A DNA stretch of 64,000 nucleotides from Microcystis wesenbergii NRERC-220 (GTDB taxonomy: Bacteria > Cyanobacteriota > Cyanobacteriia > Cyanobacteriales > Microcystaceae): NCBI RefSeq assembly GCF_032027425.1, contig NZ_JAVSJA010000001.1, positions 1 to 64,000 on the forward strand, written 5' to 3'. Positions 5,521 to 16,432 of the stretch are shown piece by piece. The translations under genes and the position numbers were made by a program. Each line of letters opens with the position of its first letter. Position 1 is the stretch's first letter. The notes under the pieces were generated by a model. It was given only the letters and a program-made list of their open reading frames with translations, was not told where the DNA came from and ran no database searches.

Positions 5521-6555
5521 TTATTCCCCCAACTGCCAGGTTATCTCTTCACCCGCTCGTAACGGAACCAGTCCGGATTCGGGAAATGGCAATTCATCGG
5601 GAATGCGCCAAGGGGTTTTGGTTAATGTGATTTGTTCGGTATTCCGGGGGAGTTGATAAAAATCCGGCCCGTGGCAGCTGGCGAACCCTTCCAGTTGCTC
5701 GATCGCATCAACACTCTCAAAGGCTTCTGCGTACAACTCTAGGGCGTGCAGGGCTGAATAACAACCCGCACAGCCACAGGAACTTTCTTTGCTGTGGCGA
5801 GAATGGGGCGCGCTATCGGTCCCTAGAAAAAACTTGGCATTGCCCGATGTGGCCGCTTGCAAAAGTGCCAAACGATGATCCTCTCGTTTCAAAATCGGCA
5901 GGCAATAAAAATGAGGACGAATGCCACCGGTAAAGAGAATGTTTCGGCTAAATAATAAATGTTGGGGCGTAATTGTGGCGGCGACATTGTTGTTAGCAGA
6001 TAGAACAAACTTGACCGCATCGGCAGTGGTAATGTGTTCAAAGACGACACGCAGTTTCGGAAATCTTGTTATCAGTGGGATTAAGTGCTTCTCAATGAAC
6101 ACTTTCTCTCGATCGAACACATCAATATCACCATCGGTAACTTCTCCGTGCAGTAGTAGCGGCATATCTACCTGCTCCATCGCTGCCAAAACGCCATCGC
6201 ACCGACGAAGGTCCGTCACCCCCAAGTCGGAATTAGTTGTTGCACCGGCCGGGTAGTATTTCACCGCTTTGACAAACTGGGAGGCTTTCGCTGCCACGAT
6301 TTCTTCGGGACGGGTATTATCGGTGAGATAGAGGGTCATCAGTGGCTCGAACTTTTGACCCTCTGGAACTGCTGCCAGAATGCGATCGCGATAGGAGGCA
6401 GCATCAGCCACCGAGCGCACTGGGGGCTTTAAATTCGGCATGATAATGGCACGGGCAAACTGACGCACCGTATGGGGGAGAACCGCTTTCATTGCCGCAC
6501 CATCGCGGAGATGAAGGTGCCAGTCGTCGGGTCGAGTTATTGTGAGTCTTCGCAT
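5521..6555 (-). CDS. pyrC: Dihydroorotase
   Basis: A 344-aa class II (E. coli-type) dihydroorotase, which makes dihydroorotate from carbamoyl-aspartate in pyrimidine synthesis. Metal-binding histidines are in DWHLHLRD (residues 11-18). The Lys that becomes carboxylated is K99 in [13 protein letters not shown]. Further metal-site segments LLLHGEV and FEHITT follow, and the flexible-loop region near GTDSAPHS is intact. Length matches the family. It is a single gene with no pyr neighbours; carA and the pyrF-pyrE fusion lie elsewhere in the window. Confidence 0.95.
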
Positions 6556-6598
6556 TGTTCAATCATACTACGGTTAGGGATGCCATCACCAAACACAA

Positions 6599-6750
6599 TA
6601 AGCTGCCCGCGTATTTAAATTGCTTGTTGAGATGAGGCAAGAGGCAACAGGCAAGAGGCAACACCCCCCCCAACCCCCCCGATGTCGGGGGGGTTGGGGG
6701 GGGAAATTCAGCTAATCTAAGGATAGGCAGTTAAAATGCGTCTTAGCTTA
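6599..6750. mobile_element. MITE family D element
   Basis: A 152-bp element. The left end is TAAGCTGCCCGCGTATTTAAA and the right end in reverse complement is TAAGCTAAGACGCATTTTAA, giving an imperfect inverted repeat. Its centre carries GAGGCAA/CAGGCAA heptamers and a CCCCCC...GATGTCGGGGGG inverted block. A second copy with the same ends is at 27061-27187. Confidence 0.7.
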
Positions 6751-6810
6751 GTTTTAGTTGATTGGAAAGAACCTTTGATTTTAGCGGCGAAATTAATTTG
6801 ACGGTGACGA

Positions 6811-6971
6811 TAATTCCTCTTGACAAAATCCCAGCACTTGACATATACTTATTTATATAATGGGAATCCGTGCCTGCCTGCGACCCCCTCATTTTCAGGC
6901 TAGATAGACTTAGGAAAATTAAATTTTGAGCGCAGGCAGTTCGAGCAACTCACTGACCACGGTGCGCTTCT
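6811..6971 (+). repeat. 161-bp direct repeat, copy A, with promoter-like box
   Basis: This is nearly identical to 7038-7198; I see only a handful of substitutions. A TTGACA box (6820-6825) and TATACT (6844-6849) are spaced 18 bp apart, a good sigma-70 promoter. Downstream, CTGCCTGCG (6874-6882) and CGCAGGCAG (6931-6939) can form a 9-bp stem. No reading frame of note is present. It could be a small RNA gene or the end of a larger mobile element. Confidence 0.6.
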
Positions 6972-6983
6972 TTTTGCATGAGT

Positions 6984-7016
6984 AGAAAACGGGTTTCTCG
7001 GAGAAACCCGTTTTCT
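6984..7016. repeat. 33-bp near-perfect palindrome inside a half MITE (family A)
   Basis: Arms AGAAAACGGGTTTCTC and GAGAAACCCGTTTTCT flank a single central base. The same 33-bp palindrome is at 13762-13794 within a full-length family A MITE. Here 6972-7037 corresponds to about half of that MITE in the opposite orientation. It sits exactly between the two 161-bp direct repeats. Confidence 0.75.
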
Positions 7017-7037
7017 GTGCGTTACTCAACGGATTTA

Positions 7038-7198
7038 TAATTCCTCTTGACAAAATCCCATCACTTGACATATACTTACTTATAGAATGGGAATCCGTGC
7101 CTGCCTGCGACCCCCTCATTTTCAGGCAAGATAGACTTAGGAAAATTAAATTTTGAGCGCAGGCAGTTCGAGCAACTCACTGACCACGATGCGCTTCT
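7038..7198 (+). repeat. 161-bp direct repeat, copy B, with promoter-like box
   Basis: This is the second copy of the 6811 element, again with TTGACA and TATACT spaced by 18 bp and the CTGCCTGCG/CGCAGGCAG pair (7101-7109, 7158-7166). Its distal part (from about 7138) also has a diverged third copy at 10811-10866, upstream of the second methyltransferase. The tail therefore belongs to the duplicated cassette. Confidence 0.6.
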
Positions 7199-7207
7199 AC
7201 TATTGGT

Positions 7208-7223
7208 ACAATAATATTATTGT
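7208..7223. promoter_or_regulatory. 16-bp palindrome upstream of methyltransferase 1
   Basis: ACAATAATATTATTGT is a perfect palindrome about 60 bp ahead of the gene. It is conserved exactly at 10869-10884 ahead of the second methyltransferase, although adjacent sequence has diverged. That makes it a candidate operator or promoter-spanning site for control of these genes. No regulator gene is adjacent, so this is inference. Confidence 0.4.
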
Positions 7224-7275
7224 CGGGAGCGATTGTATTCGTCCTCTTTAAGGGGGAATAATAATACAATTGAGA

Positions 7276-8955
7276 ATGCAGTCAATCCCCCCAATCTCTA
7301 TGGTCAATAAACTATACTACGGTGATAACCTAGAAGTGCTGCGGAAATATATCAAAGATGAATCGATCGATCTTTGTTATATCGATCCACCCTTTAATTC
7401 TAAACGTAATTACAACCAAATTTATAACAACTTAGGTAAGGAAGATCAAGCACAAGCACAAGCGTTTGTGGATACCTGGACATGGGATAATCACGCTAAC
7501 GAAGCTTTAGAAGAAATTCAAAGCAACTATCAGGGTAAATTTACCAGTCAGACTATCGATTTAATTGACGGTTTAACCAAAGTTTTAGGTAAAGGCAGTC
7601 TTCTCGCTTATCTGGTGAGTATGACTCTGAGGATTGTGGAAATCCATCGAGTTTTAAAATCTACCGGTAGCTTTTATCTCCACTGCGATCCTACTGCTAG
7701 TCATTATTTAAAAATAGTTTTAGATGCTATTTTTTGTTCTCAAGGGGGTGATTTTTTCAATGAGATTGTTTGGAAAAGAACTACGGCACACAATGATCCT
7801 CAAAGATATGGAAGAATTCAGGATCGTCTGTTTTTTTACAGCAAAACACAGGCTAAGACATTTAATCATATAGATGCCTATCATTCCCAAGAACAATTAG
7901 CAAGATATAAATACTCAGACTCTAAAGGTTTATACAGAGCAGAAAACTTAACGGCTCCTCATTTTTCCGAATCACGAACTATAGAATGGCGTGGAGTCCA
8001 TCCAGGTAATAATAGACAATGGCGGTTTTCTATAGAAAAACTAGAAGAACTATATAGTCAGGGTTATATTTTGTTACAGAAGGATGGCCGGCCTCGAAAA
8101 GATGGTCTTAAGCAATATTTATCAGAAACTAAAAGCCCTGTAATTCAAGATATATGGACAGATATTATCTTTGCTCCAACTACAAAAGAACGTCTAGGTT
8201 ATCCCACGCAAAAACCGGAGGCATTGTTAGAAAGAATAATCAAAGCAAGTAGTAATAAAGGAGATGTAATTTTAGATGCCTATTGTGGGTGTGGAACGAC
8301 TATCGCTGTAGCAGAGAGATTAGAGAGAAACTGGATTGGAATTGATATAACCTATCAGAGTATTAGCTTAATGTTAAAGCGACTAGAGGACTCCTTTGGT
8401 AAAAATGTTTTAGATAAAATTGAACTGAATGGTATTCCCAAAGATCTAGAATCAGCCAAAGCATTAGCCACTAAACCCGATGATCGTACCCGTAAAGAAT
8501 TTGAGAAATGGGCGGTTTTAACCTATAGTAATAACCGGGCCGTGATTAATGACAAAAAAGGGGCAGATAAAGGAGTCGATGCCATTGCCTATTTTCAGGG
8601 AGATAAAGACAATCGGGAGAAAATTATTTTTCAAGTAAAATCCGGTAATGTCAAATCGGGAGACATCAGAGATCTACAGGGAACCATGACACTACAAGGG
8701 GCAGCCCTGGGTATATTTATCACCTTGAAACCCCCCAGCAAAGATATGATCCAAACAGCCAAATCTGCGGGAATTTATCGCAGTCGTTATAGGAGTCAAA
8801 GTGTCGATAAAATTGAGATTGTGACAGTACAAGAAATCCTTGAACAGAAAAAACGTCTCGATGTTATCCTCACCTTTGAAGTCCTGAAAGCTGCCGAAAA
8901 ACAAAGGGAAACCCAAGGACAACAAATGAGTTTAGATATACCCTTCCCCGAATAA
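7276..8955 (+). CDS. Fused DNA methyltransferase/Mrr-like nuclease, copy 1
   Basis: About 559 aa from the ATG at 7276; ATG 7300 ([10 protein letters not shown]) is an alternative start, and neither has a clear ribosome site. Motif IV DPPF (residues 37-40) precedes motif [10 protein letters not shown] (about residues 334-342), the beta-class order of amino-methyltransferases that modify adenine N6 or cytosine N4. The segment between these motifs is the expected target-recognition region. The C-terminal ~170 residues contain GVDAIAYF followed by IIFQVKSG, the D...QxK pattern of Mrr-type PD-(D/E)XK nucleases. A single chain could thus modify and cut DNA. Whether the nuclease is active is not shown. 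It differs from copy 2 at 10937 only in the middle. Confidence 0.85.
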
Positions 8956-8982
8956 AAATCCTTTGTTTAAGTAGCTAGGTAT

Positions 8983-9087
8983 TAAGTAGCTGGTTATAAT
9001 TAAATTGAAGATAGATTTTGGGTTCGATCCCCCCTACCCTCCTTGATAAGGGGGGTGATTTCACGGTTTTGAACACCTAACTACTTA
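8983..9087. mobile_element. MITE family B element
   Basis: The left end TAAGTAGCTGGTTATAATTA and the right end CACCTAACTACTTA form an imperfect terminal inverted repeat. The interior includes GGTTCGATCCCCCC and TTGATAAGGGGGG. It is repeated identically at 12470-12574 as part of the duplicated cassette; longer relatives are at 47147-47285 and 52785-52926. Together with the family C element that follows, it fills the 325-bp gap between the methyltransferase and Rpn genes. Confidence 0.75.
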
Positions 9088-9129
9088 AAAATTGTCAGAT
9101 GCTCCCCTTAATAAGGGGAGATAGGGTGA

Positions 9130-9234
9130 TAAGTACCTAAGCAAAATTAATTACACATATCTAACCACCTCTTGCCTCTTGCCTCTTGCCTCTTGCCTAT
9201 CTTCACTAGGAAATTAATTTTGCACGACTACTTA
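9130..9234 (-). mobile_element. MITE family C element, 105 bp
   Basis: Reverse-oriented copy of the 3445-3549 element, the same 105-bp length and ends, with four GCCTCTT heptamers inside. It lies 46 bp upstream of the Rpn gene start and may influence its expression. It is duplicated with the cassette at 12617-12721. Confidence 0.8.
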
Positions 9235-9280
9235 ATTTTGTTAAAATATAGGTCAGCCTTAACCTATAATTGAATTAAAA

Positions 9281-10111
9281 ATGTATGATTCTACCTGTAA
9301 ATTTATCGCCCTTGAATATTCGAGAGACTTGGCCACTTGGTTACTGGGTAAACCCTTAGAATTAACAGAAATTAAACCCTCGGAATTATCCCTAGAACCA
9401 ATTAGAGCCGATACTTTAATCTTTTTAGAGTCGGAAGAATTAATCTTACATATCGAGTTCCAAACCGACCCTAAAGAAGATATTCCCTATAGAATGCTAG
9501 ATTATGCCACCAGACTCTATCGACGCTATCCCCATAAACCTATCCATCAAGTGGTTATTTATCTAAGGAAAAGTGACTCCCCCACAGTCCGACAGAATGA
9601 TTATAAACAAGGGAAAACCTCTCATCAATTTGAAGTGATTAGACTCTGGGAACAACCCTCAGAACCCCTATTAAAGGCCCCCGGACTGTTTCCCTTTGCC
9701 ATACTCGCTCAAGCGGAGAAACAAGAAAACTTACTGCGGCAAATTGCCCAAGAAATCGAGCAAATCAGCGATAGTCGAGAACAAAGTAATCTGGCTGCAT
9801 CTACCGCAATTCTAGCCGGGTTAGTATTAAAGAAAGACATCATCCAACGATTATTAAGGAAGGACATCATGAAAGAATCAGTTATCTATCAAGAAATCTG
9901 GTCGGAGGGTTTACAAGAGGGACGACAAGAAGGAGAAGCTAACCTAGTTTTACGTCAATTAAATCGGCGGATAGGGGACATTTCCCCCGAATTATTGCCC
10001 AATATCCGCAGTCTTGACCTAGAACAGTTAGAAAACTTGGGAGAAGCTTTGTTAGATTTTCAATCACCACAAGATTTAGAACAATGGCTGGAAAATTGCC
10101 GAGCCAGTTAG
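9281..10111 (+). CDS. Rpn family PD-(D/E)XK nuclease/putative transposase, DUF4351, copy 1
   Basis: A 276-aa protein. The N-terminal half has the PD-(D/E)XK core: ADTLIFLES then LILHIEFQT and the downstream MLDYATRLYRRY helix, as in Rpn recombination-promoting nucleases. The C-terminal part has the DUF4351-like helical region (EANLVLRQLNRRIGD) after an EGRQ linker. Rpn proteins are nucleases linked to RecA-independent recombination, and many sit in defence or mobile regions. It follows the methyltransferase on the same strand and is duplicated with it. The link to restriction is inferred from context. It has a single EGRQ unit; the copy at 12768 has four. Confidence 0.8.
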   Translation: MYDSTCKFIALEYSRDLATWLLGKPLELTEIKPSELSLEPIRADTLIFLESEELILHIEFQTDPKEDIPYRMLDYATRLYRRYPHKPIHQVVIYLRKSDSPTVRQNDYKQGKTSHQFEVIRLWEQPSEPLLKAPGLFPFAILAQAEKQENLLRQIAQEIEQISDSREQSNLAASTAILAGLVLKKDIIQRLLRKDIMKESVIYQEIWSEGLQEGRQEGEANLVLRQLNRRIGDISPELLPNIRSLDLEQLENLGEALLDFQSPQDLEQWLENCRAS

Positions 10112-10189
10112 TACAAATCAACTAAATGAGGTCGATCCATTCCCATTTGAAGCAGCAAGCTCTCAACTCCCTTGAGAGTAGTTCACATT

Positions 10190-10744
10190 TTAATCTATTC
10201 CCCGGTAGAGATCGGCGATCGCTAAATCTAGGTTAATACTTGACAGGATCACGCGATCGCCTGTCTCGTAAATAGTCGTTTCCCATATCCCCAGAGAATT
10301 ACGGCGACGGCATTCCACGCGCTGGATTTCTTGGGAAATTAATACATATTCTTCTAAAGTTTCTATCTGTTGATAATCTTGGAATTTTTCGCCCTTGTCA
10401 AAAGCCTTCGTGTTGGGGGAAAGCACTTCCGCAATTAGTTTCGGATAGCGTTTCAGATAACGATCTTGGCGATCGCGAGGATCGCAGGTAACAAAAGCAT
10501 CGGGATAGTAATAAAACTGATCTTGATAGTTAACCTTGACATTACCCGAGTGAAACCGACAGTCTGTAGAGTCGCCGAAATGTTCGTCAATGACTTTGAG
10601 AAAATTGAAGGCAATGCGCTCGTGATTATCCGTACCGCCAGCCATCGCATAAACCAAACCACGTCGGTATTCATGGCGGATCTGGCTCTGGCGCTCGATA
10701 GCGAGATATTCTTGGGGACTGATGTAGTTGGGAACCGCAATCAT
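10190..10744 (-). CDS. Uma2 family (DUF820) endonuclease-like protein
   Basis: A 184-aa protein with the Uma2 pattern: an N-terminal SPQEYLAIERQSQIRHEYRRG, then YYYPDAFVTCDPRD and LIAEVLSPNTKAFDKGEKFQDY, which hold the D...ExL core of the PD-(D/E)XK fold. Uma2 genes are hugely multiplied in cyanobacteria and their role is unknown. This one is opposite in strand to the flanking duplicated cassettes and stands between them. Upstream of its start (10745-10810) is unique sequence. Confidence 0.85.
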   Translation of the reverse strand: MIAVPNYISPQEYLAIERQSQIRHEYRRGLVYAMAGGTDNHERIAFNFLKVIDEHFGDSTDCRFHSGNVKVNYQDQFYYYPDAFVTCDPRDRQDRYLKRYPKLIAEVLSPNTKAFDKGEKFQDYQQIETLEEYVLISQEIQRVECRRRNSLGIWETTIYETGDRVILSSINLDLAIADLYRGID

Positions 10745-10868
10745 AATCTTTAGGGGGAAGCCTAATCTTAATTATAGTCGGAAGGTTTACGAGAGGGACT
10801 TCTGCTGACACTAAGTTAAATTTTGGGCGCACACAGTTCGATAAACCTACTGACCACGATGCGCCCCC

Positions 10869-10884
10869 ACAATAATATTATTGT
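10869..10884. promoter_or_regulatory. 16-bp palindrome upstream of methyltransferase 2
   Basis: The same ACAATAATATTATTGT palindrome as at 7208-7223, 52 bp before the ATG. Sequence to the left of it differs between the two units, whereas the palindrome and what follows are conserved. It is a candidate control site. Confidence 0.4.
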
Positions 10885-10936
10885 CGGGAGCGATTGCATT
10901 CGTCCTCTTTAAGGGGGAATAATAATACAATTGAGA

Positions 10937-12442
10937 ATGCAGTCAATCCCCCCAATCTCTATGGTCAATAAACTATACTACGGTGATAACCTAGAAGTGC
11001 TGCGGAAGTATATCAAAGATGAATCGATCGATCTTTGTTATATCGATCCACCCTTTAATTCTAAACGCAATTACAACCAAATTTATAACAACTTAGGTAA
11101 GGAAGATCAAGCACAAGCACAAGCGTTTGTAGATACCTGGACATGGGATAATCACGCTAACGAAGCTTTAGAAGAAATTCAAAGCAATTATCAGGGTAAA
11201 TTTACCAGTCATACTATTGATTTAATTGACGGTTTAACTAAAGTTTTAGGTAAAGGCAGTCTTCTCGCTTATCTGGTGAGTATGACTCTGAGGATTGTGG
11301 AAATCCATCGAGTTTTAAAATCTACTGGTAGCTTTTATCTCCACTGCGATCCTACTGCTAGTCATTATTTAAAAATAGTTTTAGATACTGTTTTTTGCTC
11401 TCAGGGTGGTGATTTTAAAAATGAGATTATTTGGTGTTATGGTTCAGGAGGTGCTAGTAAAAATCATTTTTCTAAAAAACATGACGTAATTTTATACTAT
11501 TCTAAATCAAGTAATAATTTTATTTTTAATGTTGATTTAGTAAGAGAACCTTATTCTTCTCCTGAAAAAGTTGAACATAAAATTATTAAAGGTAAAGCAT
11601 ATCAAAGAAAACATGAATTGGGACGGATTCCTTTTGATTGGTGGACAATACCTATCTTAACTAATACAGCAAAAGAACGGTTAGGATATCCCACACAAAA
11701 ACCAGAGGCATTGTTAGAAAGAATAATCAAAGCAAGTAGTAATAAAGGAGATGTAATTTTAGATGCCTATTGTGGGTGTGGAACGACTATCGCTGTAGCA
11801 GAGAGATTAGAGAGAAACTGGATTGGAATTGATATAAACTATCAAAGTATTAGCTTAATGTTAAAGCGACTAGAGGACTCCTTTGGTAAAAATGTTTTAG
11901 ATAAAATTGAACTGAATGGTATTCCCAAAGATCTAGAATCAGCCAAAGCATTAGCCACTAAACCCGATGATCGTACCCGCAAAGAATTTGAGAAATGGGC
12001 GGTTTTAACCTATAGTAATAACCGGGCCGTGATTAATGACAAAAAAGGGGCAGATAAAGGAGTCGATGCCATTGCCTATTTTCAGGGAGATAAAGACAAT
12101 CGGGAGAAAATTATTTTTCAAGTAAAATCCGGTAATGTCAAATCGGGAGACATCAGAGATCTACAGGGAACCATGACACTACAAGGGGCAGCCCTGGGTA
12201 TATTTATCACCTTGAAACCCCCCAGCAAAGATATGATCCAAACAGCCAAATCTGCGGGAATTTATCGCAGTCGTTATAGGAGTCAAAGTGTCGATAAAAT
12301 TGAGATTGTGACAGTACAAGAAATCCTTGAACAGAAAAAACGTCTCGATGTTATCCTCACCTTTGAAGTCCTGAAAGCTGCCGAAAAACAAAGGGAAACC
12401 CAAGGACAACAAATGAGTTTAGATATACCCTTCCCCGAATAA
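10937..12442 (+). CDS. Fused DNA methyltransferase/Mrr-like nuclease, copy 2
   Basis: About 501 aa. The N-terminal ~155 residues (with DPPF) and everything from [17 protein letters not shown] onward (motif [10 protein letters not shown] and the Mrr-like D...QVKSG domain) match copy 1 almost exactly. The segment between, about residues 158-245, is unrelated and 58 residues shorter. This lies precisely where beta-class enzymes hold their target-recognition domain, so the two copies should recognise different sequences. The start choice carries the same uncertainty as copy 1 (ATG 10961 is the alternative). Confidence 0.85.
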   Translation: MQSIPPISMVNKLYYGDNLEVLRKYIKDESIDLCYIDPPFNSKRNYNQIYNNLGKEDQAQAQAFVDTWTWDNHANEALEEIQSNYQGKFTSHTIDLIDGLTKVLGKGSLLAYLVSMTLRIVEIHRVLKSTGSFYLHCDPTASHYLKIVLDTVFCSQGGDFKNEIIWCYGSGGASKNHFSKKHDVILYYSKSSNNFIFNVDLVREPYSSPEKVEHKIIKGKAYQRKHELGRIPFDWWTIPILTNTAKERLGYPTQKPEALLERIIKASSNKGDVILDAYCGCGTTIAVAERLERNWIGIDINYQSISLMLKRLEDSFGKNVLDKIELNGIPKDLESAKALATKPDDRTRKEFEKWAVLTYSNNRAVINDKKGADKGVDAIAYFQGDKDNREKIIFQVKSGNVKSGDIRDLQGTMTLQGAALGIFITLKPPSKDMIQTAKSAGIYRSRYRSQSVDKIEIVTVQEILEQKKRLDVILTFEVLKAAEKQRETQGQQMSLDIPFPE

Positions 12443-12469
12443 AAATCCTTTGTTTAAGTAGCTAGGTAT

Positions 12470-12574
12470 TAAGTAGCTGGTTATAATTAAATTGAAGATA
12501 GATTTTGGGTTCGATCCCCCCTACCCTCCTTGATAAGGGGGGTGATTTCACGGTTTTGAACACCTAACTACTTA
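12470..12574. mobile_element. MITE family B element (duplicate of 8983)
   Basis: Sequence identical to the 8983-9087 element as far as I can see. It was carried along by the cassette duplication rather than by independent transposition. Confidence 0.75.
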
Positions 12575-12616
12575 AAAATTGTCAGATGCTCCCCTTAATA
12601 AGGGGAGATAGGGTGA

Positions 12617-12721
12617 TAAGTACCTAAGCAAAATTAATTACACATATCTAACCACCTCTTGCCTCTTGCCTCTTGCCTCTTGCCTATCTTCACTAGGAAA
12701 TTAATTTTGCACGACTACTTA
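12617..12721 (-). mobile_element. MITE family C element (duplicate of 9130)
   Basis: A 105-bp element identical to 9130-9234, carried in the duplicated cassette just upstream of the second Rpn gene. Confidence 0.8.
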
Positions 12722-12767
12722 ATTTTGTTAAAATATAGGTCAGCCTTAACCTATAATTGAATTAAAA

Positions 12768-13634
12768 ATGTATGATTCTACCTGTAAATTTATCGCCCTT
12801 GAATATTCGAGAGACTTGGCCACTTGGTTACTGGGTAAACCCTTAGAATTAACAGAAATTAAACCCTCGGAATTATCCCTAGAACCAATTAGAGCCGATA
12901 CTTTAATCTTTTTAGAGTCGGAAGAATTAATCTTACATATCGAGTTCCAAACCGACCCTAAAGAAGATATTCCCTATAGAATGCTAGATTATGCCACCAG
13001 ACTCTATCGACGCTATCCCCATAAACCTATCCATCAAGTGGTTATTTATCTAAGGAAAAGTGACTCCCCCACAGTCCGACAGAATGATTATAAACAAGGG
13101 AAAAGCTCTCATCAATTTGAAGTGATTAGACTCTGGGAACAACCCTCAGAACCCCTATTAAAGGCCCCCGGACTGTTTCCCTTTGCCATACTTGCTCAAG
13201 CTGAGAAACAAGAAAACTTACTGCGGCAAATTGCCCAAGAAATCGAGCAAATCAGCGATAGTCGAGAACAAAGTAATCTGGCTGCATCTACCGCAATTCT
13301 AGCCGGGTTAGTATTAAAGAAAGACATCATCCAACGATTATTAAGGAAGGACATCATGAAAGAATCAGTTATCTATCAAGAAATCTGGTCGGAAGGTTTA
13401 CAAGAGGGACGACAAGAGGGACGACAAGAGGGACGACAAGAGGGACGACAAGAGGGAGAAGCTAACCTAGTTTTACGTCAATTAAATCGGCGTATAGGGG
13501 ACATTTACCCCGAATTATTGCCCAATATTCGCAGTCTTGACCTAGAACAGTTAGAAAACTTGGGAGAAGCTTTGTTAGATTTTCAGTCACTACAGGATTT
13601 AGAACAATGGCTGGAAAATTGCCGAGCCAGTTAG
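12768..13634 (+). CDS. Rpn family PD-(D/E)XK nuclease/putative transposase, DUF4351, copy 2
   Basis: A 288-aa near-identical copy of the gene at 9281, with the same ADTLIFLES...LILHIEFQT nuclease core. It differs by three extra EGRQ units (four in total, encoded by GAGGGACGACAA repeats at about 13404-13454) in the linker before the DUF4351-like helix, plus a few substitutions. In-frame 12-bp repeats can expand or contract by slippage without breaking the gene, so linker length may vary between strains. Confidence 0.8.
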   Translation: MYDSTCKFIALEYSRDLATWLLGKPLELTEIKPSELSLEPIRADTLIFLESEELILHIEFQTDPKEDIPYRMLDYATRLYRRYPHKPIHQVVIYLRKSDSPTVRQNDYKQGKSSHQFEVIRLWEQPSEPLLKAPGLFPFAILAQAEKQENLLRQIAQEIEQISDSREQSNLAASTAILAGLVLKKDIIQRLLRKDIMKESVIYQEIWSEGLQEGRQEGRQEGRQEGRQEGEANLVLRQLNRRIGDIYPELLPNIRSLDLEQLENLGEALLDFQSLQDLEQWLENCRAS

Positions 13635-13737
13635 TACAAATCAACTAAATACAGTCCCTCTATTGGTCACATCTTTCCTAACATAAAATTTGACGAAAAG
13701 AGAAAAGTGTGCAGGATAGCTCAAGGGGGTTCTACAA

Positions 13738-13854
13738 TACTAAATCCGTTGAGTAACGCACAGAAAACGGGTTTCTCCGAGAAACCCGTTTTCTGCTCAT
13801 GCACTCATGCAAAAAGGGGAATAAATAATCAGTCTTTAATAACCAGATTTAGTA
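13738..13854. mobile_element. MITE family A element with palindromic core
   Basis: A 117-bp element with ends TACTAAATCCGTTGAGTA and AATAACCAGATTTAGTA, giving an inverted repeat of about nine bases. The core is the 33-bp AGAAAACGGG...CCCGTTTTCT palindrome (13762-13794). Relatives at 52663-52767 and 61274-61392 keep both ends but have heptamer arrays in place of the palindrome. Confidence 0.75.
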
Positions 13855-13928
13855 TAAGGATTGTATAAACCAGCGCAAGAGGGCAAAATCTTGATAAACT
13901 GAGGGGATAACTATCCCAGACAATCCCC

Positions 13929-14105
13929 ATGACCACTCACTTTATTAGTGCCGAAATCGACCTACAGGAAACCCCGCAACAACTGCAGCAAGAAATCGAA
14001 AAAGAATTAGCCAAACGCGGTGAACCCTTGCGTTGGGCAATCACAGAAGTGGATACCGAGAATAATCAAGTCAAAGTCGAAGCGATTGTCACCACTGCCT
14101 CGTGA
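13929..14105 (+). CDS. Small hypothetical protein, 58 aa
   Basis: An ATG-started frame encoding 58 residues (MTTHFISAEIDLQETPQQLQ at the N-terminus, ending EAIVTTAS). Codon use resembles the neighbouring genes, and its TGA overlaps the GTG start of the DUF3326 gene (GTGA). That is strong evidence of translational coupling and of a real gene. It is acidic with one predicted helix followed by a beta strand pair. Family not recognised. It probably works with, or is regulated together with, the downstream gene. Confidence 0.7.
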   Translation: MTTHFISAEIDLQETPQQLQQEIEKELAKRGEPLRWAITEVDTENNQVKVEAIVTTAS

Positions 14106-15160
14106 ATTCCCGTCCCTATACCGCCGTACTAATTATTCCCACCGGCATCGGGGCTGCGATTGGCGGTTATGCTGGGGATGGCATTCCCGTGGCCAGAGCG
14201 ATCGCCCAAGTTTGCGATCGCCTAATTACCCATCCCAATGTCCTCAACGGCGCACAACTGTACTGGCCCCTAGCCAACACCTACTATGTGGAGGGTTACG
14301 CTTTAGATCGTTTTGCCCGGGGGGATTGGGGATTAAGTCCCGTCCATCAAAATCGCATCGGGTTACTATTCGATCGCGCCATTGAATTTGACCTCTTGCA
14401 AAGACACCTTCAGGCTGCCGATGCTGTCCGGGCTACCCTAGGCTTAGATCTGACCGATTACGTTATCACCGATGCCCCCCTAAATGTGCAGTTGCGAGAG
14501 GCAGCCTCTGGGGCCAGTTGGGGAACAATTGGCAATCCCGACAGCTTGCTGCGGGGAGCAGAAAAACTGATTAACCAGGGACAGGCAGAAGCGATCGCCA
14601 TTGTTGCCCGTTTTCCCGACGATCCCGATAGCATTGCCCTGGCTAATTATCGCCATGGTCAGGGGGTGGATCCCCTTGCCGGGGCCGAAGCGGTAATTTC
14701 CCATCTGGTGGTGCGACAATTCCAAATACCGGCAGCCCACGCCCCCGCTTTAAGTCCGCTGCCCCTCGATCCGCAACTTTCCCCCAAGGCCGCGGCCGAA
14801 GAAATCGGTTATACTTTTTTACCCTGCGTTTTGGTGGGTTTAAGTCGCGCCCCCCAATTGGTCAAGCAGCCCGGTCCCGATGCTATTTGGAGCCGGGAGG
14901 TGGACGCGCTGATCGTTCCCGCCAGTGCCTGCGGCTCTAGCACAGTTTTAAGTTTTTGTCAAGAGAAAACTGTACTGATTGCAGTGCAGGAAAACAGTAC
15001 AAGAATGAAGGTGGCCCCGGAACCCCTAGGGGTGAAAGCAATTAGGGTACACTCATATACAGAGGCGATCGGTGCGATCGTTTGTCAACGGGCAGGGGTT
15101 AACCTAGCATCTCTTCGCCCTAATTTAAACTCTTTACGCTGTTTATCCGAGAATCCGTGA
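14102..15160 (+). CDS. DUF3326 domain protein
   Basis: A 352-aa protein starting at GTG 14102 within the stop of the small upstream gene. Features include an N-terminal LIIPTGIGAAIGGYAGD segment, a conserved PLANTYYVEGYALDRF motif near residue 55-70, and a late VPASACGSSTVLSF segment. These fit the DUF3326 family, found mainly in cyanobacteria and plants and of unknown function. It overlaps the next gene by four bases, so 13929-15738 is a three-gene translationally coupled operon. Confidence 0.8.
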   Translation: MNSRPYTAVLIIPTGIGAAIGGYAGDGIPVARAIAQVCDRLITHPNVLNGAQLYWPLANTYYVEGYALDRFARGDWGLSPVHQNRIGLLFDRAIEFDLLQRHLQAADAVRATLGLDLTDYVITDAPLNVQLREAASGASWGTIGNPDSLLRGAEKLINQGQAEAIAIVARFPDDPDSIALANYRHGQGVDPLAGAEAVISHLVVRQFQIPAAHAPALSPLPLDPQLSPKAAAEEIGYTFLPCVLVGLSRAPQLVKQPGPDAIWSREVDALIVPASACGSSTVLSFCQEKTVLIAVQENSTRMKVAPEPLGVKAIRVHSYTEAIGAIVCQRAGVNLASLRPNLNSLRCLSENP

Positions 15161-15738
15161 CTAATTCCCCTAATTCCGAATTTGATCCCCTGACACGCAC
15201 ACAAGTCCTCACCATTATGGCGGTAACGGCGATTATCTTGCTGGTAGTCGCCAAAGTTTGGCAATATTTCGGTGCGATCGCTATTCCCGCCATTCGCTGG
15301 ACTCTCCCGGATTTCCTGTTCGGATTAGCCTTAGCGGGGGCAATTAGTGGAATTAGTGGGCTTCTATATCGTTTTTGGTCTAGTTATCGCCATAGTGCTA
15401 ACGCTTACTTAGAATTAGTCATTAAACCTTTAGCATGGCCCGATTTAATTTGGATTGGATTGCTGCCGGGGTTAAGTGAAGAATTATTATTTCGCGGGGT
15501 GATTTTGCCAGCTTTGGGCTTAAATATCTTTGGTTTAACCGTTTCTAGTCTGATTTTTGGCATCCTCCATTTTAGCGGTTCCCAACAATGGCCCTATGTT
15601 ATCTGGGCAACTGTTGTCGGTTTTGCCCTCGGTTATACCATCATCATCACCGGTAATTTATTAATCCCGATCCTCGCTCATATTATCACCAATCTCCTCG
15701 CTAGTTTTCTCTGGAAATTACAGCATAGTAATCAGTAA
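15157..15738 (+). CDS. CPBP family intramembrane metalloprotease
   Basis: A 193-aa membrane protein from GTG 15157 (overlapping the previous TGA). It shows the three CPBP (Abi) motifs: EELLFRG at about 108-114, FGILHFSG near 130-137, and HIITNLLASF close to the C-terminus. Together these supply the glutamate and histidine residues of type II CAAX prenyl endopeptidase-like proteases. Four or more membrane helices are evident. Cyanobacterial members are mostly uncharacterised; some act in thylakoid development or bacteriocin immunity. The substrate is unknown. Confidence 0.85.
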   Translation: MTNSPNSEFDPLTRTQVLTIMAVTAIILLVVAKVWQYFGAIAIPAIRWTLPDFLFGLALAGAISGISGLLYRFWSSYRHSANAYLELVIKPLAWPDLIWIGLLPGLSEELLFRGVILPALGLNIFGLTVSSLIFGILHFSGSQQWPYVIWATVVGFALGYTIIITGNLLIPILAHIITNLLASFLWKLQHSNQ

Positions 15739-15975
15739 TCAGTTATCAGTTATCAGTCATCAGTGGGGAAGTTATCAGTAATCAGATTTGAGTTTTAAGT
15801 GAGCAGTATTAAATAGAAGTTTCCTACTGTCTTTTCACTGATTACTGTTTACTGTTCACTGTTCACTGAAAATACTCCCTTCTCCCCAATTCATAATTCA
15901 TAATTCATAATTCATAATTCCCACTTTCCCATCTCCTATCTCCTGTCTCCTATCTCCCGTCTCCTGTCTCCTGTC
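15735..15975. repeat. Intergenic short-repeat cluster
   Basis: Successive ATCAGTTATCAGT, CAGTTCACTGTTCACTG, ATTCATAATTCATA and CTCCTGTCTCCTATCTCC arrays fill the gap between the CPBP gene and the DUF3531 gene. No coding or RNA signal was noticed. Confidence 0.75.
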
Positions 15976-15988
15976 TCCTATAAAAAAT

Positions 15989-16432
15989 ATGGAAGTACAA
16001 TTTCGCGAATTTAATCCTTTTGATGTCTGGTTTTGGCTGGAATTTTCGACGGTTCCCTCGAATATGGAACAGCAATATGTAGAAGAAGTTTTTGCCTCTT
16101 GGTTTTATTTGGGTAAATTAGGGGCTTTCAATGCCGAAAACCTACAGGTACAGGAGGTGGGAGTCGATATTAGTTATATGGAATACGATCCAGATATGGC
16201 CGAAAATGCCTTTATGTCACCGATGCACAATATGACCGATTTTGAATACTTAGGTACTTGGGGACGTTGTTGGTTTGACCTTGGTACTAGCGATCTTATT
16301 GCTTTAGATATTTTAATCAATGCCTTGACCCAATTAAGTAAGGATTTTGTCGATATTAAACGTTTAATTATCGGTGGAGAAAATCAAGATTGGACTGTCA
16401 GCGATCGCAGTAATTATCTCTTTAGCGAATAA
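15989..16432 (+). CDS. DUF3531 family protein
   Basis: A 147-aa soluble protein beginning MEVQFREFNPFDVWFWLEF, with the conserved DYLGTWGRCWFDLGTSD-like segment (here FEYLGTWGRCWFDLG, about residue 91-105). It matches the DUF3531 family, present across cyanobacteria and plastid-bearing plants, function unknown. It is a single gene flanked by repeat-rich DNA on both sides. Confidence 0.7.
   Translation: MEVQFREFNPFDVWFWLEFSTVPSNMEQQYVEEVFASWFYLGKLGAFNAENLQVQEVGVDISYMEYDPDMAENAFMSPMHNMTDFEYLGTWGRCWFDLGTSDLIALDILINALTQLSKDFVDIKRLIIGGENQDWTVSDRSNYLFSE

Follow-up and report, generated by a model that had tools for sequence, protein, structure and literature searches.

Tandem one-chain methyltransferase-nuclease genes with unrelated target-recognition domains in Microcystis wesenbergii

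Two near-identical genes stand in tandem within the first 64,000 nucleotides of contig NZ_JAVSJA010000001.1 of Microcystis wesenbergii NRERC-220 (the window). Each encodes a methyltransferase joined to an Mrr-type nuclease domain, and their target-recognition domains (TRDs) are unrelated. We consider it probable that they are two complete one-chain restriction-modification enzymes with additive specificities, that the TRDs are replaced through the conserved flanks, and that the two units have recombined with each other.

We argue for the following scheme. Each unit would be a complete one-chain restriction-modification enzyme, with an N-terminal beta-class amino-methyltransferase joined through a linker to an Mrr-type PD-QxK nuclease domain at the C-terminus. 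The TRD would lie between motif IV and motif I, and the nuclease would use that same TRD. The TRD of each protein would thus set where it methylates and where it cleaves, and the locus would provide the cell with two enzymes of different specificity. Through homologous recombination in their conserved flanks, TRD blocks would be swapped between strains and species, and the same flanks would let the window units convert one another. The array would add specificities, with TRD turnover on an evolutionary time scale. The sequence itself shows the domains, the conserved catalytic positions, the replacement of TRDs, the recombination between the units and the recurrence of arrays; methylation and cleavage, different motifs, simultaneous expression and a benefit for defence are inferred.

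Two units in direct orientation

Both units are on the + strand, at 7208-10127 and 10869-13650. In each, a methyltransferase-nuclease fusion gene is followed, after some 325 bp of spacer, by an Rpn/DUF4351 gene (Table 1). The locus is bounded by a pyrC-like gene on one side and the gene at 14102-15160 on the other. We refer to the two fusion genes as slot 1 and slot 2, and to genomes and loci by G and L numbers. An alternative start at codon 9 is possible (7300 in slot 1, 10961 in slot 2), because a relative in another Microcystis genome (G003) lacks the first ATG. The protein order is motif IV, TRD, motif I and then the C-terminal nuclease, where DPPF is presumably motif IV and 8275..8301 is what we take to be motif I.

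At the protein level slots 1 and 2 are 98% identical in the methyltransferase flanks, 100% in the linker-nuclease part and 18% in the TRDs. The original prediction of near-identical units with unrelated TRDs is borne out by this alignment, and its TRD coordinates were correct to within about 10 bases. It had also held the interval from motif IV to motif I to be unrelated. This is true of the TRD, but about 120 residues after DPPF are conserved, so the statement does not hold for the whole interval. The unrelated sequence covers about 7756-8182 in one unit and 11417-11669 in the other, and extra substitutions are clustered at both of its edges (7726-7768 and 8193-8217). On the N-terminal side the natural junction follows NE[IV]xW.

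Table 1. Features of the two units and their surroundings (positions in the window)
Feature	Position	Strand	Details
162-nt repeat, second copy, upstream of slot 1	7037..7198	+	first copy 6810-6971
Slot-1 methyltransferase-TRD-Mrr fusion gene (P0001)	7276..8955	+	559 aa plus stop; Pfam N6_N4_Mtase 1.5e-41, Mrr_cat 8e-09
Motif IV DPPF, slot 1	7384..7395	+	residues 37-40
Slot-1 TRD	7756..8182	+	143 aa between conserved columns (residues 163-305); unrelated to slot 2; same type in G004, G006, G008
Motif I, slot 1	8275..8301	+	residues 334-342
Mrr-type nuclease domain, slot 1	8482..8850	+	Mrr_cat; D435...Q453-x-K455
Difference-free tract	8494..9617	+	no mismatch to 11981-13104 (unit 2); attributed to conversion or a later exchange of the units
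Unit-1 Rpn/DUF4351 gene (P0003)	9281..10111	+	DUF4351 2.2e-26; TIGR01784 50.8 bits (cut-off 52.1)
Uma2-family gene separating the units	10190..10744	-	PF05685 3.2e-34
Slot-2 methyltransferase-TRD-Mrr fusion gene (P0002)	10937..12442	+	501 aa plus stop; Pfam N6_N4_Mtase 9.9e-48, Mrr_cat 6.4e-09
Slot-2 TRD	11417..11669	+	85 aa between conserved columns
Mrr-type nuclease domain, slot 2	11969..12337	+	Mrr_cat 6.4e-09; D377 and K397 in predicted model
Unit-2 Rpn/DUF4351 gene (P0004)	12768..13634	+	TIGR01784 62.4 bits (cut-off 52.1)

The TRD is exchanged independently of its flanks

The family sample holds 122 non-redundant members. Patterns or queries derived from the window's two proteins served to collect them, a near-complete span of the family profile was required, and repeat fetches were removed. 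TRDs were grouped into types by single linkage at 70% identity, and pairs more than 30 residues apart in length were left uncompared. There are 74 such types among the 122 members.

Twelve Microcystis genomes were considered, the window's included, and the surroundings of the locus were compared in 10 stretches. A full-length gene is present in the window's genome and nine others, G011 has a 38-residue remnant and G009 has none. The 11 genes in these 10 genomes carry 7 TRD types on near-identical flanks, with the same junctions. The slot-1 type is found in the window, G004, G006 and G008, and another type is shared by G001 and G002; the remaining five, slot 2's among them, occur in one gene each. 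When the TRDs differ, alignments drop in identity within about 7710-7770 and recover by about 8217, and when the TRD is the same there are 0-4 mismatches per 100 across it.

The same fixed pair in all strains, an outcome that would have refuted the original prediction, is therefore not what is seen. Genomes with one unit exist, as the original prediction had suggested looking for: G001, G004 and G005 have a single unit, in slot 1, with the window's neighbours on both sides. In G003 the Rpn gene of slot 1 is truncated, the Uma2 gene is present, and the one fusion gene, with a different TRD, belongs to an intact unit in slot 2. This implies the two-slot arrangement is not private to the window's strain. 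The right-hand neighbours of the window are present in G003, G008 and G010 (in the latter two beyond an insertion of about 3.4-3.5 kb) and the left-hand ones in G011, while G002, G006 and G007 have no outer window neighbour within the stretch examined. In G011, which is the same species, the slot-1 gene ends after about 38 codons near a contig end (L154 end, G011:C38 near 50525) and continues into unrelated sequence; no remaining parts of it were found elsewhere in that genome.

A tree of the flanks does not follow the TRDs. On 1191 joined flank sites a clade of the four carriers of the slot-1 TRD is rejected (p-AU, the p-value of the approximately unbiased test, 8.8e-5), and G004 pairs with G010 (support 100/99) despite their different TRDs. 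The C flank alone also rejects this clade (p-AU 0.0011). Synonymous divergence between strains is 0.034-0.058 in the slot-1 TRD versus 0.084-0.137 in the flanks. TRD identity is bimodal across the family. The 713 non-tandem pairs with flanks at least 84% identical divide into 665 with TRDs below 50%, 37 at or above 75% and 11 between. Where the flanks are at least 96% identical (65 non-tandem pairs) the numbers are 49, 16 and 0.

We argue that exchange of the TRD as a block between conserved flanks is well supported, since there are 7 types on near-identical flanks, the slot-1 clade is rejected and TRD identity is bimodal. Recombination of this kind was also part of the original prediction. 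Some TRDs turn up again in distant organisms. The slot-2 TRD is 88% identical in G048, which is another genus (flank 86%), 85% in Anabaena L092 (flank 82%) and 83% in the cyanobacterial metagenome-assembled genome G180, where the gene concerned is half of a tandem pair. One copy in Thiospirillum matches Planktothrix at 82% in the TRD, 76% in the flank and 52% in the nuclease. Beyond the family, TRDs similar to that of slot 2 sit in methyltransferase frames that are mostly 279-360 aa long, and TRDs similar to that of slot 1 in frames mostly 436-451 aa long (E up to 1e-6 for both), which hints at different sources for the two.

This distribution bears on a scenario where the two enzymes act together on a single asymmetric site, one for each strand, like the methyltransferases of those Type IIS systems that have two. 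Neighbouring beta-class enzymes with different TRDs are what such a pair would look like. However, the slot-1 type occurs without the slot-2 type in G004, G006 and G008, and the slot-2 type occurs in G048 and in Anabaena L092 (where the locus alone was read) with no slot-1 type found there. The slot-2 type also stands beside a different TRD in G180, and an array of four copies does not make sense as a pair. We regard the pair as very improbable, and independent specificities as the better explanation.

The two units have recombined with each other

Outside the TRD there are 23 nucleotide differences between the units: 9 in 518 sites over 7208-7725, 3 in 274 over 8220-8493, 0 in 1124 over 8494-9617 and 11 in 510 over 9618-10127, the last without counting a 36-nt in-frame indel in Rpn. 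The 1124-site run had been noticed ahead of its shuffle test, in which 2 of 200,000 shuffles of the 23 differences reached such a length; this excludes chance. The longest such runs in the aligned sites of the nine other Microcystis genomes are 136-292. The identical tract means the units exchanged sequence, or underwent a partial duplication, after their 5' flanks separated. Judged by this tract, the window's two units have recombined with each other.

A simple recent tandem duplication does not fit, because synonymous divergence (dS) between the N flanks is 0.089, within the range of 0.06-0.17 between genomes of the genus, yet 1124 bp are identical. We reject it. On joined flanks the window slots are sisters (97/96); on the N flank alone they are not, though the sister relation is not rejected (0.26). 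Substitutions between the units are mostly synonymous (8 synonymous and 3 non-synonymous in the N flank, 7 and 1 in the C part). Both slot genes look intact, constrained and functional.

One can imagine slot 1 as the expressed copy and slot 2 as a silent or weakly expressed store, with gene conversion between the direct units bringing a different TRD into slot 1. In favour of this, sequence exchange between the units has taken place. Each copy of the 162-nt repeat upstream of slot 1 holds a TTGACA-18-TATACT site (7047-7076 and 6820-6849; 11/12 matches each), while just a 52-nt stretch of this repeat is found upstream of slot 2 (10813-10864), and a scan of the sequence just upstream of that slot (10700-10960) gave no promoter-like site on the + strand. 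However, the promoter sites are consensus matches, with 3 on both strands against 1.3 expected in shuffles. The slot-2 gene has not decayed, and in G003 it is intact despite an upstream sequence that resembles that of the window's slot 2. Small gaps within the arrays of Thiospirillum and Chromatium, given below, also fit joint expression. We think switching within the cell is unlikely. Since both slot genes are intact and constrained, an additive repertoire of two specificities with TRD turnover is likelier.

Arrays recur in other genomes

Arrays are not limited to the window. Thiospirillum jenense has four copies (L128), Chromatium okenii two (L098), and G180 has two separate tandem pairs (L213, L214). 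In all 10 within-array pairs the TRDs are less than 40% identical and the flanks are 88-98% identical. Gaps between stop-to-stop frames are 19, 9 and 899 nt in Thiospirillum and -19 nt in Chromatium. Gaps this small suggest the array genes of these two are jointly transcribed. The corresponding gaps in the G180 arrays are 804 and 775 nt.

Two observations concern the array loci themselves. Between copies three and four of Thiospirillum (L128 9247-9952) there is a nucleotidyltransferase frame and a HEPN frame. The first scores 36.4 bits against the MntA antitoxin model (cut-off 60) with NTP_transf_2 above cut-off, and the HEPN match is above cut-off as well, so they are a probable toxin-antitoxin pair. 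At L137 1-309, the contig opens with a C-terminal nuclease fragment (Mrr_cat 5e-05), and a complete family gene follows immediately. This is probably a further tandem array ended by the contig boundary.

Domain architecture and catalytic positions

N6_N4_Mtase and Mrr_cat both match the two window proteins and all 50 members of alignment A2, as expected of a one-chain Type IIC enzyme. The order motif IV, TRD, motif I is that of the beta class and of Type III Mod. Foldseek and VIA-align neighbours of the methyltransferase part include beta-class enzymes and Mod subunits. D37, P39 and F40 are present in 122 of 122 members and P38 in 121; D334, G338 and G340 are also invariant. Because a near-full profile span was required, this census is biased towards intact genes: the 122 do not include the split or partial copies seen in L119, L133, L135, L143, L048 and L061, a second, split copy in L136 or the fragment in L137.

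The C-terminal domain has the features of an Mrr-like PD-(D/E)XK nuclease. Mrr_cat is above cut-off, D435, Q453 and K455 are present, and the predicted core order agrees. In the predicted model of the slot-2 protein, D377 opens one strand and K397 closes the next. D435 and K455 are kept in all 122 members, which come from several phyla, and position 453 is Q in 100 of them and S in 22. The one-chain methyltransferase-nuclease architecture of the original prediction is upheld by these matches and invariant positions.

Several results weigh against our reading as a whole. The N flank alone does not reject a clade of slot-1 TRD carriers at 0.05 (p-AU 0.062), and a clade of G001 and G002, which carry one TRD, is not rejected either (p-AU 0.18). 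Arrays are a minority (12 of 122 members). Since 665 of the 713 non-tandem pairs with similar flanks differ in TRD too, the difference within arrays is weak evidence for selection; it is consistent with selection for difference without proving it. The remaining points concern the nuclease. In 47 of 50 members the Mrr domain has a further match, to NA-iREase1, which Pfam names as an inactive family. Every one of the five annotated members from phages and plasmids (L166-L170) has S453. A sequence search for solved relatives of the nuclease part gave none up to E 1, and the matches listed by Foldseek and VIA-align cover the methyltransferase part only, which is uninformative on the nuclease fold.

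The NA-iREase1 match and S453 are what one would expect if the C-terminal domain were not a restriction nuclease at all, but inactive, structural or modification-dependent, with the genes being solitary methyltransferases in epigenetic roles. However, it does not seem plausible for D435 and K455 to persist in 122 of 122 members from several phyla in that case, and Q453 is present in both window proteins. We give this alternative a low probability, and a restriction nuclease is the reading we keep.

Phage members deserve a separate remark. Dori, OzzyJ and Amgine (L166, L167, L168) carry full-length members whose annotation reads DNA methyltransferase or methylase. These retain D435 and K455 and have S453, and each gene is within about 1.3 kb of an integrase gene. 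They are possible phage-borne one-chain enzymes.

The Rpn genes and other neighbours

The original prediction regarded the Rpn nuclease as the partner of the methyltransferase fusion. Its relatives were counted near the 98 members for which 1500 nt or more of downstream sequence was available; the window's two genes do not enter the count. A relative is present within 2.5 kb in 9 of these (P0003 query, E 1e-8), namely 8 in Microcystis and L073. A laxer census (within 5 kb, E 1e-5, with a second query from the Chromatium locus) gives 12 of 98, of which 8 are Microcystis and both Chromatium copies are included; 5 kb on both sides was covered for 39 of the 98. No relative was found near the other arrays (Thiospirillum, G180) in the stretch examined. 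The window's genome has 17 further Rpn match rows elsewhere. Rpn is thus not a conserved partner, and the census does not support it as a functional one. It must be noted that an Rpn-family gene lies 2.9 kb downstream of the Chromatium array on the opposite strand, outside the first census, which counts against our view of Rpn as a non-partner. This gene (L098 12016-13128, minus strand) scores 138 bits against TIGR01784 and 1.5e-50 against PDDEXK_2. Only P0004 of the two window genes is above the TIGR01784 cut-off.

The two window Rpn genes differ by three in-frame copies of a 12-nt repeat encoding QEGR, with more in unit 2 (9912-9925 vs 13400-13460). This repeat is likely slippage-prone. Several Rpn/DUF4351 relatives also form a cluster elsewhere in the window's genome (G000:C1 1389165-1392934). 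The 162-nt repeat has 26 further partial matches across the genome, 10813-10864 included. A palindrome-like stretch around GAAAACGGGTTTCT / AGAAACCCGTTTTC was seen by eye near both outer ends of the locus, at 6985-7020 and about 13760-13795. No RNA elements were found in 6000-16000 at the gathering threshold.

Comparison with known systems

TRD mobility itself is already known for Type I and Type III systems. TRD exchange in Type III Mod is established for modA of Neisseria and Haemophilus (PMC3311624), and TRD mobility is described for Type III systems of H. pylori (PMC3983042). The likeness is close: an internal methyltransferase TRD is replaced as a block between conserved flanks, across species too (PMC3311624; PMC3983042). 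Unlike Type III Mod, the window family has a fused nuclease, whole enzymes may stand in tandem, and there is no Res helicase among the immediate neighbours scanned (the two Rpn/DUF4351 genes and the Uma2 gene, to which the scan was limited).

Type IIC/IIG enzymes likewise have methyltransferase and nuclease in a single chain. Most have an N-terminal nuclease, a gamma-class methyltransferase and a separate or C-terminal specificity part (PMC4081073), and this usual Type IIG layout is not that of the window proteins. BtgZI shares their domain order, with an N-terminal alpha-class methyltransferase before a C-terminal PD-QXK nuclease (PMC4081073). The window family differs from all of these, the alpha-class BtgZI included, in being beta class with an internal TRD. 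Another paper, PMC4389544, is not an account of this family; it deals with a fragment of the nuclease that Type IIG enzymes usually have at the N-terminus.

The Type ISP enzymes LlaGI and LlaBIII are also single chains with an Mrr-like PD-QXK nuclease, but theirs is N-terminal, a translocase domain is present, the methyltransferase is of the gamma class and the TRD is C-terminal (PMC3874165). P0001 and P0002 have no translocase between an Mrr-like nuclease and a gamma methyltransferase, and for neither of them does Pfam give any match to a helicase or translocase (E up to 1). In Type I systems with duplicated hsdS the specificity subunit is switched by inversion between inverted repeats (PMC7394358). 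They resemble the window in having several specificities at one locus with shared sequence that permits recombination (PMC7394358). In contrast, the window repeats whole enzymes in direct orientation, with both units on the + strand and no inverted copy.

Among the literature matches listed there is no description of a one-chain beta-methyltransferase-Mrr family or of its tandem arrays, in a search that REBASE and most subscription journals lay outside of. Within that literature the family and its arrays look new, and REBASE may list such enzymes.

Implications

If the enzymes are active, they would show that TRD exchange, a principle of Type I and III systems, also operates where complete enzymes form arrays. 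Comparing TRDs across the family would then amount to many natural specificity swaps in a small one-chain enzyme of about 500-560 aa, and target recognition could be tested by exchanging one segment between fixed junctions. A broader scenario is that the one-chain beta-methyltransferase-Mrr class is a widespread plug-in platform, with an open TRD pool across species and perhaps phyla, and with arrays as specificity stores whose units convert each other inside the cell. We put this forward tentatively and would not bet on it. If it is true, a lineage could change its restriction targets without acquiring a new system.

Bloom-forming cyanobacteria are reported to have unusually many restriction-modification systems (PMC8262939). 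Active enzymes of this kind would give them a direct route to new specificities, and exchange of the TRD block would let a cell change or widen its defence against viruses.

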